A stretch of DNA of 52,382 nt from a bacterium (GCA_030649055.1 JAUSGH010000009.1:1-52382), one strand, 5' to 3'; shown: positions 2,036 through 52,382, counted from the first letter of the stretch. Notes: generated from the sequence alone by a model not told the origin. Numbers and translations are program-made.

Positions 2036-2969
2036 AGTCGTGCGATCGGATGAGTTCTATCATGCCCTGAATCCAGATCGCGTACAGTTGCATGATCCTC
2101 CGGCGCAGGAATCCGTTTGTGGTGTCCACGCACGCGGCGTAGGGGACATTCAGACGCCAGAGGTGTTCGGTAAGCGATCCGTCGTAGTGGTGAATGCATC
2201 CGTCGCCATCGGTCTTCATGACGCGGATGAGCGCGAACCCATCGCTGTTTCGTTCAAACCCGTCGCTGATCCAGCGATGGCGGAGCACAGGAACGGCTTT
2301 TGCGACGCGCCGGACGATGTTTCGGAAGACGCCTTTCACGAATGCGTAGTGAAACGCTCCCGTGGGTGCTTTTCTCGCGAAGTCGTCATCGTCCTGGCTT
2401 TCATGGAGGTCAAGCGCGCCAACAATTTGCCCGTGGTGATTCCAGAAGTCGTTCCCGAGCAGATGATGCATGAGGCGCGTCTCCGGGGGCAGCCGGAGAC
2501 GGAGCCGCCGGTCGGTACTCAAGAACCAGAGTTCCGACGTATCGCGCGTGCCGAGGTCATAGACAATCTCGCCGTTGCGATTGCGGTATACGAGGAAGTC
2601 GTTGTTGCCCCGCTGCAGTTTCGCGTCGCCATAGAGGTTGTAGTGCGTCCCCAGCTCAAACCCCGAGGGATTCATGAGCGGGTAGATGATGACCTTGACG
2701 CCCGCCTTGTGCGCGGCGTTAAGGATCCGGTTCGCGCTTCGGAGCATGAAGAGCGGCCCTGTTGCCTCGTCGCCGTGCATGCCGGTTGTGAGGAGCAGAA
2801 TCCTATCCTTTCGCTCAATGTCGCGCGAGGCGATACGCAGGAAGCGATAGCGCTTTCTCCCGTGCTTTCCGTACGAGAGCGTGTGCCATGCAAGCGTGAT
2901 GTCCGCGCGGCCCTTAAGCACGCGGAGCATGCGCGCATAGAACGCCTCCGCGGTCATGGGGCCTTTCAT
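2034..2969 (-). CDS. M14-family carboxypeptidase/deacylase-like protein with altered catalytic position
   Basis: 311 residues, paralogous to the gene at 997-1935. Zinc-site motifs are kept: TTGMHGDEATG (HxxE), NPSGFELG and GALDLHES (third ligand). At the position of the catalytic Glu, however, the sequence reads YAACVDTTNG where the neighbour reads SITTETTG, so Glu appears replaced by Asp. The enzyme may be slowed, have different specificity, or be a binding protein; the alignment is by eye. GGAGG lies 7 nt upstream of the ATG. The three peptidase genes form a minus-strand array, and at least the two longer ones end in their own terminators. Confidence 0.75.
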   Translation of the reverse strand: MKGPMTAEAFYARMLRVLKGRADITLAWHTLSYGKHGRKRYRFLRIASRDIERKDRILLLTTGMHGDEATGPLFMLRSANRILNAAHKAGVKVIIYPLMNPSGFELGTHYNLYGDAKLQRGNNDFLVYRNRNGEIVYDLGTRDTSELWFLSTDRRLRLRLPPETRLMHHLLGNDFWNHHGQIVGALDLHESQDDDDFARKAPTGAFHYAFVKGVFRNIVRRVAKAVPVLRHRWISDGFERNSDGFALIRVMKTDGDGCIHHYDGSLTEHLWRLNVPYAACVDTTNGFLRRRIMQLYAIWIQGMIELIRSHD

Positions 2970-3030
2970 GGAAAGTCCTCCACAGTTGGATTTTGAGAAA
3001 TCAGACTACGCTTACTATACTCCCAGAATA

Positions 3031-3150
3031 GAAAAAAGCAAAAAAGCATCAAAGCAAAGAAGCAATAAAGCAAAGAAGCAATAAAGCAACGAAGCAAGAA
3101 CAGCCATTAGTTCTTTGTTCCATTGCTTCGTTGCTTACGTGCTTTCTTGT
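3031..3150. repeat. Degenerate AGCAA-word inverted repeat
   Basis: The spacer between the M14 gene and dut is built from variants of AAAGCAAAGAAGCAATAA on the left and the complementary TTGCTTCGTTGCTTACG words on the right, flanking a short unique centre near 3100-3115. The two arms can pair imperfectly. The same word family occurs at 18706-18780 and 26942-27145. Confidence 0.7.
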
Positions 3151-3152
3151 TT

Positions 3153-3596
3153 CTATGTTTGCCCTGTCGTTCCAAACCCTCCTCTTGTTTTGCGGCGCAT
3201 AGATTTCACTTCATGCAGTGCCGCGCGCTTGTAGGGCATGATGAGCATTTGCGCGATGCGGTCGCCGCGCAAAATTGTTACGGGCGCGTTGGTAAAGTTA
3301 AATACAGGAAAGTGATATTCATCGCCATCGCCGGAAAAATCTTCATCGCCGATACCTAGGCCGTTCGGCGTGATGAGTCCGCGTTTATAAAATGAACTGC
3401 GCGCGACAAGCAGTACAAAATGCCCTTTGGGCGGCGCAACGGCAATATTTAACGGCACAAGCGCTGTTTGCTGTGGCGGCACGGTTACGGCTTCCCGTGC
3501 ATGGCAATCAAAACACACGGCACCCTTCGTGTGGTACTGGGGGATCGGGAGTGCGCGGTCGAAACGCTTGATATGCACTTGGAGTTTCTTTGGCAT
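3153..3596 (-). CDS. dut: dUTP diphosphatase (dUTPase)
   Basis: 147 residues with all five trimeric dUTPase motifs in order: AVCFDCHA (motif 1), ARSSF (motif 2), GLGIGDEDFSGDGDEY (motif 3, normally G-x-I-D-x-x-Y), RGDRIAQMLI (motif 4) and RKTRGGFGTTGQT (motif 5, the C-terminal arm that closes the active site). It hydrolyses dUTP to dUMP and pyrophosphate, keeping uracil out of DNA and supplying dUMP for thymidylate. Motif 3 is slightly unusual, with an extra acidic stretch and no tyrosine before the RG position. No Shine-Dalgarno precedes the ATG, as for other housekeeping genes here. Together with tdk at 37384 it points to salvage-based nucleotide metabolism. Confidence 0.9.
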   Translation of the reverse strand: MPKKLQVHIKRFDRALPIPQYHTKGAVCFDCHAREAVTVPPQQTALVPLNIAVAPPKGHFVLLVARSSFYKRGLITPNGLGIGDEDFSGDGDEYHFPVFNFTNAPVTILRGDRIAQMLIMPYKRAALHEVKSMRRKTRGGFGTTGQT

Positions 3597-3635: not shown

Positions 3636-3664
3636 TTGACAAATGTGGAAAGGTCTGCTATACT
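3636..3664 (+). promoter_or_regulatory. Promoter of the DGR target gene
   Basis: TTGACA (3636-3641), 17-nt spacer, TATACT (3659-3664). This is a near-consensus sigma-70 type promoter. The start of transcription would be near 3671, giving a leader of about 80 nt before the ATG at 3750. Confidence 0.75.
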
Positions 3665-3749
3665 CTTTGCAGAACCTATTGGTTAGCACGCCCAAATCCT
3701 GCGGTGTAGCAGGTAGTGCGGGCGATGCATTTTGGACAGGAGGTCTGTG

Positions 3750-4343
3750 ATGGGTTCCCCGACATTGGCTACGTTCAATCGGATGGTTCGCGAGGGCCAG
3801 CCGAATGCGGTGACCAACGAGCGCCTCGTGAAGCTCGTGGAAAGCGGGCTCTGGGACGTCGCGGTGGATGCGCCCGACTACGGCGTGGCTGCGGCGACGC
3901 TTCGGGGTGGCGAGGGCATCGTGATGATTCCCCTCACCCCGACCACCTTCGGCCCCTTGATCCAGCCCCCGTTCGTGGACGAGGGTGGCTGGGACCTCAT
4001 CGCCGACGGCCCGGACGAGCTGGACATCGCAAACGTCCGGCAGCTCCCGATGCTCGAGGGCGACGAGACGGTCATCAAGTACGAGGAGGCCGTGCGCCGC
4101 AGCCGGGAGTTCGGCCAGCGCGCTGCGTTCCGGATTCGGGATGCGGGCAACGCCGGAAAGATCTCGAAAGAGGTCTTCCCCGTCGACACCTACGCGCCGT
4201 GCGGGAAGACGGTCTGGCGGCACCGCCAGGGCGGCCGCTGCTACGCCTGGTACGTCGATCGCGATGCGAGCGGCTTCTGCTGCCTCTGCGGCTGGTTCAG
4301 CGACGTCGTGGACTCCAGCAGCCGTCGCCTTGTCAGTAAGTAG
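3750..4343 (+). CDS. DGR target protein with C-terminal variable region
   Basis: 197 residues, starting at the ATG that follows GGAGGTCTGTG; an upstream ATG at 3732 lacks such a site. The conserved body contains IPLTPTTFGPLIQPPF, DEGGWDLIADGP and RQLPMLEGDE, all shared with the gene at 52065. The last 40 residues (from WRHRQGGRCYAWYV to RRLVSK) are encoded by the variable region at 4216-4336. The layout Cys-Tyr-Ala-Trp-Tyr-Val then Gly-Phe then Trp-Phe-Ser fits a C-type-lectin-like DGR ligand-binding fold. Compared with the template, 13 residues differ, mostly Asn or Tyr codons changed to Gly, Asp, Ser, Cys, Arg or Leu. No signal peptide or membrane anchor is seen, so where it acts is open. 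It is followed by a hairpin terminator at 4413-4440. Confidence 0.85.
   Translation: MGSPTLATFNRMVREGQPNAVTNERLVKLVESGLWDVAVDAPDYGVAAATLRGGEGIVMIPLTPTTFGPLIQPPFVDEGGWDLIADGPDELDIANVRQLPMLEGDETVIKYEEAVRRSREFGQRAAFRIRDAGNAGKISKEVFPVDTYAPCGKTVWRHRQGGRCYAWYVDRDASGFCCLCGWFSDVVDSSSRRLVSK
4216..4336 (+). other. DGR variable region (VR)
   Basis: These 121 nt align without gaps to the template repeat at 4765-4885. There are 16 differences. Fifteen fall on template adenines (11 to G, 2 to C, 2 to T) and one on a template T (T to G, in the TAT/GAT codon). This adenine bias is the mark of DGR mutagenic homing. The unchanged 3' end CCGTCGCCTTGTCAG is the likely initiation-of-mutagenic-homing segment, after which the copies diverge. 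It is placed at the end of the target gene. Confidence 0.93.
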
Positions 4344-4344
4344 T

Positions 4345-4400
4345 TGGGCCTTGGGTCGCTGGGTCCCCTTAGGACCCTTTGACCCTTGCGACCCTCGGTC
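4345..4400. repeat. Degenerate GGGTC-word inverted repeat
   Basis: Just after the target stop codon, variants of GGGTCGCTGGGTCC on the left face GACCCTTTGACCC and GCGACCC on the right around a TTAG centre. This is the same style of degenerate inverted word repeat seen in other spacers, but with its own word. Confidence 0.6.
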
Positions 4401-4412
4401 ACTTCGAATCCC

Positions 4413-4440
4413 AACCCCGTGCGTTCATTCGCACGGGGTT
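4413..4440 (+). terminator. Hairpin downstream of the DGR target gene
   Basis: Perfect 11-bp stem AACCCCGTGCG / CGCACGGGGTT with a 6-nt loop, followed by GTTCTATTTT. It is probably the transcription terminator. DGR target sites often carry a hairpin or cruciform 3' of the variable region, so it could also help homing, although it lies about 75 nt past the VR. Confidence 0.7.
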
Positions 4441-4764
4441 GTTCTATTTTGTATACTGAAAGCGGATAGTAGGCGACAACGCGCGGTTCTCCTTGGCAAA
4501 CGTCAGTGATGGCTTCGCGTGGCCGAATTCTAGAATCTTTTTGCGCAGAGTCGGGACGGCTACATTCGCCGATGGGCGAATAGGGTTTTTCCGAGCGTCG
4601 CGAAGAGATTTCTAACAACACGAATAAACTACTTGGTGCCGCGCATTAGGGCATTGTAACCCAGTAGGTCATTCTACTGAATGAGATGCCAAATACGATA
4701 CAGCCGGAGTCCGCCAGCCGGTGGACAATGGGCAAGTGGCGCGGATGATGAGCGGCACATTTTG
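4441..4764. other. Non-coding DGR spacer upstream of the template repeat
   Basis: About 320 bases with no convincing gene. It should hold the promoter of the template RNA, but I see no clear -35/-10 pair. A small hairpin TTCGCCGATGGGCGAA lies near 4565-4580. The 116-residue frame that crosses the template repeat is not a gene. Confidence 0.5.
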
Positions 4765-4885
4765 GGCGGCACCGCCAGAGCGGCAACTGCTACGCCTGGT
4801 ACGTCTATCGCAATGCGAACGGCTTCTACTGCAACTACAACTGGTTCAGCAACGACGTGAACTCCAACAGCCGTCGCCTTGTCAG
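4765..4885 (+). other. DGR template repeat (TR)
   Basis: 121 nt, non-coding, and the donor for the VR at 4216-4336. Read in the VR frame it is rich in AAC and TAC codons (for example GGC-AAC-TGC and TAC-TGC-AAC-TAC-AAC-TGG). Such codons let adenine mutation reach many residues without creating stop codons. It has the same orientation as the target gene and the RT, and it ends 3 bp before the stop codon of the convergent avd gene. Confidence 0.93.
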
Positions 4886-4888
4886 CAA

Positions 4889-5329
4889 CTACTTCTTCGT
4901 GTTTGCTGTTGCCTGCGCGCGACTACTTGCGTCGCGCGCGGCATCAGCTTCAGTTTTGCGCAGCCATCCGCCGAGCATCTTTCCTATCGCGTCAAATTTT
5001 TCAGACAGCGCGGCATACTGTTTCTGCCCGAGATCACCAACTTCCCAAAGTATCATGAGAAAGAATTTTAGCGCATCAAACTTGGTGTTTGCTTTCTGTA
5101 ATGCAGGCAGTTTCTGCGCTTTGGAAATGTATTGCGCGACAAATATCAACTCCAGCGTTTCAACAAACAACGCATCTACCTTTTCGCCTAGCGTATACCG
5201 TGAGGATTTCTGAATGTGAGATTTAATCTCGTGCCACAGTTTATAACTCGCAATCAAATGTTGCAGAATACTCAAATTTCCAGCGGGGGTGGGGTTCAAA
5301 AGGTTATTCCCAAAATTCAATTCACTCAT
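4889..5329 (-). CDS. avd: DGR accessory variability determinant (Avd), four-helix bundle protein
   Basis: 146 residues of almost entirely helical, amphipathic sequence. It carries YKLWHEIKSH, RYTLGEKVDALF, LELIFVAQYIS, KFDALKFFLMILWEVGD and LSEKFDAIGKMLGGWL, the conserved pattern of the bAvd / four-helix-bundle family. Avd forms a pentamer that binds the RT and the template RNA and is needed for mutagenic homing. Here it is encoded on the strand opposite to target, TR and RT. Its start codon (5329) lies at the start of the conserved RT sequence, so the 5' ends of avd and RT overlap head to head. Its 3' end abuts the template repeat. The C-terminal tail (about residues 128-146) is Ala/Arg/Thr-rich and probably disordered. 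Confidence 0.88.
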   Translation of the reverse strand: MSELNFGNNLLNPTPAGNLSILQHLIASYKLWHEIKSHIQKSSRYTLGEKVDALFVETLELIFVAQYISKAQKLPALQKANTKFDALKFFLMILWEVGDLGQKQYAALSEKFDAIGKMLGGWLRKTEADAARDASSRAQATANTKK

Positions 5330-6301
5330 AGGTTTGATGAAATTATTTCGGTTGATAATTTATTGTCGGCGTGGAAAGAGTTTGCCGAGGGCAAGCGAAA
5401 AAAGCGCGATGTGCAGGAGTTCGGGCTACATTTGATGGATAATATCTTCGCGTTGCACAACGACCTTGCCGCGTATAGATATAATCACGGCAGTTATCAA
5501 ATGTTTCGCATCGCGGATCCGAAGCCGCGAGTGATTCACAAAGCTACGGTTCGTGATCGTGTACTCCACCACGCCATTTACCGCATCCTCTACCCGTTTT
5601 TTGACCGGACGTTCATTCCCGATTCTTTTTCTTGTCGAATCGGGAAGGGGACGCACCACGCCATAGAGCGTTTCCGTGCCTTTGCCTATCACGCCAGCAG
5701 CAATCATACACGTACATTATGGGTGCTCCATTGCGACATCAGGAAATGCTTTGCGAGCATTGATCAGCGCATGCTTATCGCGACACTTCATGAATATATC
5801 GCCGATGAAGACGTGCGTTGGCTACTGCGCCAAGTCATTGAGAGCTTTTCCAGCGGAACGCCCCATGTCGGGTTGCCGCTGGGGAACCTCACCTCGCAAC
5901 TGTTTGCTAATATCTATCTCAATACGCTGGATCAGTTTGTGAAACACCGACTGAAAGCCAAATACTATCTCCGCTACTCGGACGATTTCATCTTCTGCTC
6001 TGCTGATCGCGATTGGCTCCTCGGACTTATTTCTCAATTACGCAACTTCCTCGCGGAGCGGCTACATTTGGAGTTGCACCCCAAGAAAATTACACTGAAA
6101 TCGCTTGCGAGCGGCGCGGACATATTGGGCTGGGTGCATTTTACCGACCATCGCGTCCTTCGAACGGCAACAAAGCATCGGATGTTCCGGAGGATTCAGG
6201 AACATCCAACGGAAGGAACACTCCAATCGTACAGAGGGTTGTTGTCGCATGGAAATGCACGCCACCCTGCCCAATTCATAAATTCTAGAGGGAAAGGATA
6301 A
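5216..6301 (+). CDS. DGR reverse transcriptase
   Basis: Up to 361 residues. Conserved RT blocks are HKATVRDRVLHHAIY, FIPDSFSCRIGKGTHHA, LHCDIRKCFASID (motif A with the first metal Asp), GLPLGNLTSQLFANIYL (motif B, with Q-x-x-A-N) and YLRYSDDFIFC (motif C, YSDD at about residues 254-257). Then come HPKKI and GADILGWVHF. This is the RT family paired with bAvd in DGRs; no maturase, HNH or RNase H domain follows, so it is not a complete group II intron. The start is uncertain. Family homology begins near FDEII at 5333, but the only upstream ATG codons are at 5216 and 5258, both inside the antisense avd 5' end. An ATT start at 5306 or 5315 cannot be excluded. The protein ends soon after LLSHGNA. 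Confidence 0.88.
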   Translation: MRFNLVPQFITRNQMLQNTQISSGGGVQKVIPKIQFTHRFDEIISVDNLLSAWKEFAEGKRKKRDVQEFGLHLMDNIFALHNDLAAYRYNHGSYQMFRIADPKPRVIHKATVRDRVLHHAIYRILYPFFDRTFIPDSFSCRIGKGTHHAIERFRAFAYHASSNHTRTLWVLHCDIRKCFASIDQRMLIATLHEYIADEDVRWLLRQVIESFSSGTPHVGLPLGNLTSQLFANIYLNTLDQFVKHRLKAKYYLRYSDDFIFCSADRDWLLGLISQLRNFLAERLHLELHPKKITLKSLASGADILGWVHFTDHRVLRTATKHRMFRRIQEHPTEGTLQSYRGLLSHGNARHPAQFINSRGKG

Positions 6302-51324: not shown

Positions 51325-51966
51325 ATGTTCCAGGATATTGAATTTTGGCTGCGGGAACTCATTGCGGCGCAAGGCGCGCTCGGCGTTTTTTTAATTGGCA
51401 TTTTAGAAGAGGTGGTGTTCATTATTCCATCTTCGCTCGTATTTCTTGGCGCCGGATTTTTGCTTATTGCACCCGAGGCGTCATTCGCGAACGCCGTATT
51501 CGCGGCATTGATTAACATCGGTATTCCGGCCGCGCTTGGCGTTACGCTCGGTTCATTCTTTATTTACGGCATCGTTTATGCCGGAGGCAAACCGACCATC
51601 GCGCGTTTTGGGAAATATGTGGGGCTGACATGGGAAGAAATTGAAGCAGCGGAGAAAAAATTTACGGCGGGGCGCATGGATGAAACATTGTTGTTTATCC
51701 TCCGCGCGCTGCCGATTTTTCCAATATCTATTATTTCCGCGGTCTGCGGACTGATACGTCTGCCGTGGAAAGAGTTTTTCGTCGTAACGCTTTTAGGCGC
51801 CTTTGTGCGCGCATCCGGCTCCGCGCTTGTCGGCTGGGGAGTGGGGAAGGAGTATGCGTATTACGCGAGCCAGTTTGAGGTGGTAGAGAAATACGGCCTT
51901 GTCGCGCTTGTGATCGGCGGAATCGTGGCGTATTGGCAGATTAAGAAGCGCCTCTTGACAAATTGA
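51325..51966 (+). CDS. DedA-family membrane protein
   Basis: 213 residues, five to six helices. EEVVFIIPSSLVFLGAGFLL, IGIPAALGVTLGSFFIYGIVYAGG and the conserved LLFILRALPIFPISIISAVCGLIRLPWKEFFVVTLLGAFVRAS (with the R-x-x-P motif) mark the DedA/VTT (SNARE-associated) fold. DedA proteins are linked to lipid carrier or phospholipid flipping and membrane potential. The last codons TTGACAAATTGA form the -35 of the promoter for the next gene. Confidence 0.88.
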   Translation: MFQDIEFWLRELIAAQGALGVFLIGILEEVVFIIPSSLVFLGAGFLLIAPEASFANAVFAALINIGIPAALGVTLGSFFIYGIVYAGGKPTIARFGKYVGLTWEEIEAAEKKFTAGRMDETLLFILRALPIFPISIISAVCGLIRLPWKEFFVVTLLGAFVRASGSALVGWGVGKEYAYYASQFEVVEKYGLVALVIGGIVAYWQIKKRLLTN

Positions 51967-51983
51967 GGAAGCACGTGTATAAT
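51955..51983 (+). promoter_or_regulatory. Promoter of the second DGR-target-like gene
   Basis: TTGACA (51955-51960), 17-nt spacer, TATAAT (51978-51983): fully consensus. The -35 overlaps the dedA stop codon region. The leader is about 75 nt and contains GGTCAGCCGAATG and GGTCAGCCCTGGAGG, a small direct repeat. Confidence 0.82.
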
Positions 51984-52064: not shown

Positions 52065-52382
52065 ATGGGTATCGAAAACGGCACGGGACGCGACCAGTCC
52101 ATCCAGGTGATGGCGGTGCTCGGATGCAACGCCAAGTGGGACAACGTTCTCACAGAGGTTGCCCAGCGGATCATCAACAATCCGAAGGGTTCGGGCGAGC
52201 AGTTCACGCGTTTCCTGCAGAACGGCGGCGTGTGCATTCCCCTCACCCCGACCACCTTCGGTTCCGAGATCAAGCCCCCGTTCGAGGACGAAGGAGGATG
52301 GGACATCATCGCCGACGGCCCGGGAGACGATCTGTTGGATGTCGCAAACATCCAACAGCTCCCGATGCTCAACGAGGGTGAG
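52065..52382 (+). CDS. DGR-target-like protein, N-terminal part (cut by window end)
   Basis: 106 codons to the edge, starting after TGGAGGAAAGGACGTAGAGCC. From residue 62 on it matches the DGR target at 3750: VCIPLTPTTFGSEIKPPFED, EGGWDIIADGPGDD and ANIQQLPMLNEGE, against VMIPLTPTTFGPLIQPPFVD, EGGWDLIADGPDE and ANVRQLPMLEGDE. A 26-nt stretch of DNA (starting ATTCCCCTCACCCCGACCAC) is identical in both genes, indicating a fairly recent duplication. The first 55 residues differ. A variable region would be expected beyond the window, but it cannot be seen. Confidence 0.8.
   Translation, partial: MGIENGTGRDQSIQVMAVLGCNAKWDNVLTEVAQRIINNPKGSGEQFTRFLQNGGVCIPLTPTTFGSEIKPPFEDEGGWDIIADGPGDDLLDVANIQQLPMLNEGE

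Follow-up and report, generated by a model that had tools for sequence, protein, structure and literature searches.

A patescibacterial diversity-generating retroelement with an inverted avd gene and a hairpin behind its template repeat

Patescibacteria are rich in diversity-generating retroelements (DGRs), and mechanistic work on these elements has dealt mainly with the one of phage BPP-1. Patescibacterial DGRs are reportedly also described in Paul 2017. Their occurrence in this group is established (Roux et al., 2021; PMC8144416), and here we describe one at positions 3636-6301 of a 52,382-nt contig (JAUSGH010000009.1, assembly GCA_030649055.1), the whole of which is called the window. The window corresponds to contig C9 in an 875-kb genome of 23 contigs, and the rest of that genome was searched with the template repeat (TR) of the element. 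A patescibacterial host (candidate phyla radiation, CPR) is supported, because the named relatives of the reverse transcriptase (RT) are Patescibacteria groups (Uhr-, Vogel-, Nomura-, Yanofsky- and Taylorbacteria).

In the BPP-1 element (mtd-avd-TR-brt), cDNA synthesis is primed by a folded spacer that lies between TR and brt and also recruits RT-Avd (PMC12875486). The present element resembles it in possessing a TR, a C-terminal variable repeat (VR), a stem-loop behind the VR, an error-prone RT, Avd and adenine-restricted changes, and in having the TR ahead of the RT and on its strand. Two differences stand out: avd, which in BPP-1 is co-directional and upstream of the TR, is here inverted between TR and RT, and the TR is followed by a short hairpin, whereas BPP-1 has the folding TR-brt spacer. 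The Patescibacteria-restricted clade 2 of the DGRs classified by Roux et al. (2021) is similar in being cellular, patescibacterial and modular, with a C-terminal VR and targets lacking recognisable domains; the likeness is one of description, and avd is unmentioned in the main text of that study (PMC8144416). The "inverted" DGRs of DiGReF (Shewanella, Vibrio, Photobacterium) likewise have one component on the other strand, apparently within a single lineage, but in those it is the RT that runs opposite to TR, VR and target, while here avd alone is inverted (PMC3521204). DGRs with multiple VRs, such as that of Pseudogulbenkiania with four, share the use of one TR and RT for several targets, some of them remote (PMC3521204); in contrast, the targets described here combine different N-terminal modules as chimeras, and in one pair the C-terminal part has been duplicated very recently. 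A survey of cassette patterns took in TR, VR and RT but not avd (PMC6642488). In our literature search, whose scope did not extend to Paul 2017 and Wu 2018, no account of an antisense avd in the TR-RT interval was found, and the layout may thus be known. The element is of a known kind, a DGR, and its architecture is a variant common to a large lineage.

The retroelement and its adenine-restricted variation

The features that make up the element in the window are as follows.

3750-4343, plus strand: target gene T1, 197 aa, an open reading frame (ORF) with its ATG behind a Shine-Dalgarno sequence, AGGAGG
4216-4336, plus strand: variable repeat VR1, 16 differences to the TR, 15 of them at TR adenines; it ends 7 nt before the end of T1
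4765-4885, plus strand: template repeat, located by genome search, the sole TR found in the genome
4889-5329, minus strand: avd, accessory variability determinant, 146 aa (PF22296 E 2.5e-14, NF033474 E 6.6e-17)
4913-4941, plus strand: hairpin, 27 nt behind the TR and opposite avd codons 130-139 on the other strand (minimum free energy (MFE) z -3.35 for 4886-4965)
5258-6301, plus strand: DGR reverse transcriptase (RVT_1 E 2e-20; GLPLGNLTSQ and YSDD motifs)
52065-52382, plus strand: second target gene, T2, of which the contig end leaves only the 5' part

The initial annotation had read this locus as a complete cassette that had been active in its lineage. RT, Avd, TR and VRs are indeed all present, and both the identification as a DGR and the activity stood; as a description of the cassette, however, that reading was incomplete, having missed the inversion of avd, the hairpin behind the TR and further targets. 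The RVT_1 match and the motif confirmed the predicted YSDD-type RT. Its start is ambiguous, since the frame is open from a GTG at 5216, with the ATG at 5258 as the likely start and conservation from about 5330. The best relative of solved structure is 8ub7 (E 7.6e-45), an entry titled only "Reverse transcriptase", which we take to be the BPP-1 DGR complex. Relatives of the RT at 32-66% identity adjoin TR/VR pairs, annotated phage DGRs among them; no relative was found in viral contigs with the patterns used. A DRT or retron assignment was considered and rejected: the NCBIfam matches to DRT, retron and intron families, which reflect an RT domain common to all of these, fall far below the cut-offs, PADLOC gave none, and TR, VR and Avd are present. 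In several RT relatives (L017, L018, L025 and others) the matched stretch contains in-frame stops, and some DGRs of this group may therefore be decaying.

Re-alignment of TR and VR1 reproduced the gap-free match over 121 nt, with 15 of the 16 differences at TR adenines (11 A>G, 2 A>C, 2 A>T), as had been claimed. Given 28 adenines in 121 nt, the hypergeometric probability of this is 9.8e-11; the lone exception is a T>G at 4806. The suggested search of the rest of the genome with the TR as query was carried out and revealed two more VRs, C15:137-242 and C7:73161-73266, both with 88% identity to the TR, but neither a second TR nor a second RT. Counted from TR position 16, all 13 differences of each fall on TR adenines (p 3.3e-10); over the three VRs p spans 6e-10 to 1e-10. 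Each has three non-adenine differences besides, all within the first 14 nt, which mark the end of flanking-gene homology.

Between the two additional VRs there are 14 differing sites, all of them TR adenines, within flanks that are identical over 121 nt upstream and 120 nt downstream (241 nt, 0 differences). Such differences amid identical flanks indicate that mutagenic homing, and therefore rewriting, continued after a recent duplication of two targets. The upstream halves of such targets are T2, at the end of the window, and T3, at the start of contig C11. The T2 central module is 100% identical to that of T3 over 141 nt; the T2 and T3 halves stop at the same base, and the C15 and C7 downstream halves begin at the same base. 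This is what two target genes sharing a repeat collapsed in assembly would give. The T2 and T3 N-terminal halves may each belong to either of the C15 and C7 VRs. Together with T1, at least three target genes appear to be served in trans from the one TR.

Two other explanations of this variation have to be considered. The C15 and C7 VRs could represent a single locus, assembled from a mixture of two strains, as the break of both contig ends at the same base and the 241 nt of identical VR flank would allow. We consider this improbable: the two VRs lie on different contigs with different genes, the downstream sequences part beyond the shared stretch (first mismatch 120 nt after the VR), and the presence of two upstream halves with different N-terminal modules and promoters, at the end of C9 and on C11, is the pattern of two collapsed loci. 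In either case the differences between the two VRs would be DGR-made. Even less credence is given to the view that the DGR is an old, inactive element whose adenine pattern is a fossil. The non-adenine change in VR1 (4806) agrees with it, as does the fact that the case for activity is drawn from assembled sequence, so that activity at the present day would be an extrapolation. However, the RT and avd frames are open with intact motifs, and the T2/T3 flanks are identical yet their VRs differ at 14 TR adenines. Since three VRs depart from the TR almost solely at adenines, and the C15/C7 pair solely at TR adenines, the inferred activity in this lineage was upheld. Setting aside any role of the hairpin, we thus hold with high confidence that this is a chromosomal DGR with adenine-restricted rewriting of several targets.

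Orientation of the avd gene

The initial annotation had placed an Avd-type protein next to the RT, and this was corroborated by a PF22296 match above the cut-off and by an NF033474 match that is below the curated cut-off of that model. The canonical order target-avd-TR-RT is not found here. The gene, on the minus strand, fills the spacer between TR and RT. Its stop codon is 3 nt away from the TR, and its start extends over the 5' end of the RT gene.

The layout was compared across 172 non-redundant RT loci from Patescibacteria and phages; an iterated profile served to locate Avd in them, and an adenine-aware scan to locate TR/VR. An avd antisense and upstream of the RT was found at 144 loci, a same-strand avd at 13 and an antisense avd downstream of the RT at one; among the remaining 14 without detected avd, seven are at contig edges. 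At loci with antisense avd the distance from TR to RT is mostly 390-460 nt. All loci with an RT identity of at least 42% and available upstream sequence are of the antisense type, save L049, an RT fragment. Of nine phage DGRs, seven have avd upstream on the same strand and two have none detected, and the usual gene order also occurs in a few distant patescibacterial DGRs.

In a tree of 100 RTs, which is unrooted and whose bootstrap is not fully settled, one branch (100/98) parts 20 rows with canonical or unassigned order from 80 others, and every avd detected in these 80 rows is antisense. They comprise a main clade of 74 rows (95/96) and six further rows that form a second group. A single inversion of avd suffices for this tree, without being proven by it. 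The second group (L174, L175, L176, L177, L180 and L182) is a second deep patescibacterial set with antisense avd, in which the avd stop codon is mostly right at the TR end. Judging from these loci, an inverted avd appears to be the rule across a large patescibacterial lineage. It could be argued that the antisense ORF is not avd at all and that the spacer only looks coding, given that the ORF is antisense to the expected TR transcript. This is scarcely credible in view of the two family matches and of homologues found by profile search in the same place at 143 further loci.

The hairpin behind the template repeat

The second peculiarity of the lineage is a stem in the RNA just 3' of the TR. 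Of 114 main-clade loci, 88 have a stem within the 80 nt that follow the TR which folds better than 95% of dinucleotide shuffles (mean MFE z -2.79), while control bins before the TR and further downstream stay at background (5-10 of 114 loci). The nine phage DGRs give no comparable signal in the first 80 nt (2/9), and a search of Rfam was negative at E <= 1. Between loci the stem sequences differ. Because a first MAFFT alignment put the region out of register, a covariance model of the hairpin alone was built from 12 well-registered sequences. In the resulting alignment of 64 loci, 97.2% of cells pair and double changes occur in 9/9 pairs, with 108 double-changed cells observed vs 28 in shuffles; sliding the partner by 1-3 columns reduces pairing to 36-63%. 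The median stem extends from +13 to +37 after the TR. Among 55 loci it lies inside the avd ORF in 28, across the avd stop codon in 19 and beyond it in 8. An outer helix between the 3' end of the TR and the sequence after the hairpin, first suggested by a few loci (CAGCTC/GAGCTG, CAACTC/GAGTTG), was rejected (self 11.53 vs non-self 11.45, permutation p 0.39).

By analogy with BPP-1, the RT and Avd would turn TR RNA into cDNA that carries mutations opposite adenines, and this cDNA would replace VRs that have a matching 3' end and a downstream stem-loop (PMC12875486). In this lineage the RNA 3' of the TR would be antisense to avd and carry the hairpin at a fairly fixed distance after the TR. Since the stretch between TR and RT is here antisense avd, the hairpin would do the job of the BPP-1 spacer in short form, or end the TR RNA, or both. 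Most likely it would be a functional 3' element of the TR RNA that marks its 3' end and presents the RNA to RT-Avd.

That the hairpin is a mere intrinsic terminator, with the TR RNA a short separate transcript and RT and avd under promoters of their own, is a serious possibility to which we give somewhat less than an even chance. A T-tract follows the stem on the TR strand at 42 of 55 loci and on the avd strand at none, and most close relatives read CTCTCC..GGAGAG-TTTTGTTTT. Against a mere terminator, the remaining 13 of the 55 have strong stems without a T-tract, among them the window's hairpin at 4913-4941 and most loci with an RT identity of 46-48%. Nor are promoter-like sites in excess in the TR-RT spacer; a promoter scan for the TR in the VR-TR gap gave a slight excess (10 of 119 loci at >=10 consensus matches vs 4 in shuffles). 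Termination and recognition by the RT are, moreover, compatible with each other. Because the stem persists where the T-tract has been lost, we lean towards a functional 3' element, and some role of the hairpin in the TR RNA beyond termination seems to us slightly favoured. Several points weigh against this. The T-tract distribution fits a terminator as well. The covariation alignment (A3) was fitted to the structure and hence leans towards it, the shuffle test being alignment-free. With the covariance model, the window's own hairpin scores marginally at best and is placed out of register (20.9 bits, E 0.065). In the second antisense group only one of six loci has the hairpin, which is thus not needed for every DGR with inverted avd. 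A more far-reaching proposal combines three elements: the RNA that recruits and primes the RT is compressed into a short hairpin encoded antisense within or beside the avd 3' end; the avd mRNA, being complementary to the 3' region of the TR RNA, can control the DGR by sense-antisense pairing; and the variable domain is not of the C-type lectin fold. As a whole we regard this proposal as rather unlikely.

Target genes and neighbourhood

The remaining features of the window concern expression of the targets and homing.

3636-3664, plus strand: sigma70-type promoter of T1, TTGACA-17-TATACT with extended -10 (consensus scan, 11/12)
4353-4385, plus strand: nested stem-loop just 3' of VR1, a candidate homing stem-loop found by folding
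4412-4441, plus strand: intrinsic terminator of T1, a 12-pair stem with a T-rich tail
51955-51983, plus strand: promoter of T2, TTGACA-17-TATAAT (12/12 consensus)

The strong promoter ascribed to the target is thus borne out at 11 of 12 consensus positions, and that of T3 is likewise a perfect TTGACA-17-TATAAT. The stem-loop at 4353-4385 is a candidate homing element by its likeness to the BPP-1 stem-loop (PMC12875486), and a counterpart is present behind the C15 VR. In addition, the stretch TTTTGTATACTGAA..GGATAGTAGGCGACAACGCGCGGTTCTCC at 4452-4493 is also found 3' of the C15 VR and so recurs behind two target genes.

T1 consists, in order, of an N-terminal module, a central module and a C-terminal variable domain. 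With T2 and T3 it has the central module in common (83% over about 130 nt), and the N-terminal modules of T2 and T3 differ. With another gene, C15:530-1285, it shares promoter, leader and N-terminal module (81% over 205 nt). This target-like gene (L005, G000:C15) combines the promoter and N-terminal module of T1 with a C-terminal type of another DGR lineage; by eye, it resembles the target of a further patescibacterial DGR, locus L040. A diverged paralogue of the variable domain was also observed at L052 (G000:C20), 2727-3110, on the minus strand (WRRRYGHRYVWCVDRDASGW...). No TR for the C15:530-1285 gene or the C20 gene was found in the genome, and because of this both look like orphaned targets. 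The targets are mosaics, with interchangeable N-terminal modules on one beta-rich variable domain, and are probably ligand-binding proteins. Recombination of this kind has been proposed for DGR targets generally (Roux et al., 2021; PMC8144416).

The variable domain recurs in about 30 patescibacterial DGR targets, and the relatives of T1 that share it are VR-bearing targets of other DGRs. The target family had not been recognised in the initial annotation, and this remained so: there was no match in Pfam, NCBIfam or PDB, the PDB profile search with the variable domain yielding none below E 0.7. A structure model of T1 residues 64-197, built from 26 sequences (mean pLDDT 85), shows the elements beta-beta-alpha-alpha-beta-beta-beta-beta and matches no PDB or viral fold at E <= 0.001, the best PDB entry being 8oks (probability 0.25). 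One point against the overall reading is that no C-type lectin fold could be made out in the target model, although the domain may be a divergent form of it. A model of the whole of T1, too weak at pLDDT 66, gave no fold match either. By sequence, the variable positions fall on every second residue of two strands (105/107/109 and 114/116/118 in model numbering), as if they lay on one face of a sheet.

Outside the element, a gene at 3153-3596 on the minus strand is divergent from the target promoter and, to judge by its sequence, appears dUTPase-like (ARSSFYKRGL, GDRIAQ, RGGFGTTG). Three neighbouring ORFs at 224-2969, also on the minus strand, look by sequence like paralogous proteins of the succinylglutamate desuccinylase/aspartoacylase type (HGDE/HGNE motifs).

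The T2/T3 pair constitutes a natural experiment, in which rewriting at adenines only has followed duplication within one genome. From the mosaic targets one sees how module exchange may recruit new ones. The hairpin is a compact and testable element. If the whole lineage has an antisense avd with a conserved hairpin at this place, the rules of priming and of RT-Avd recognition would be broader than the BPP-1 model.

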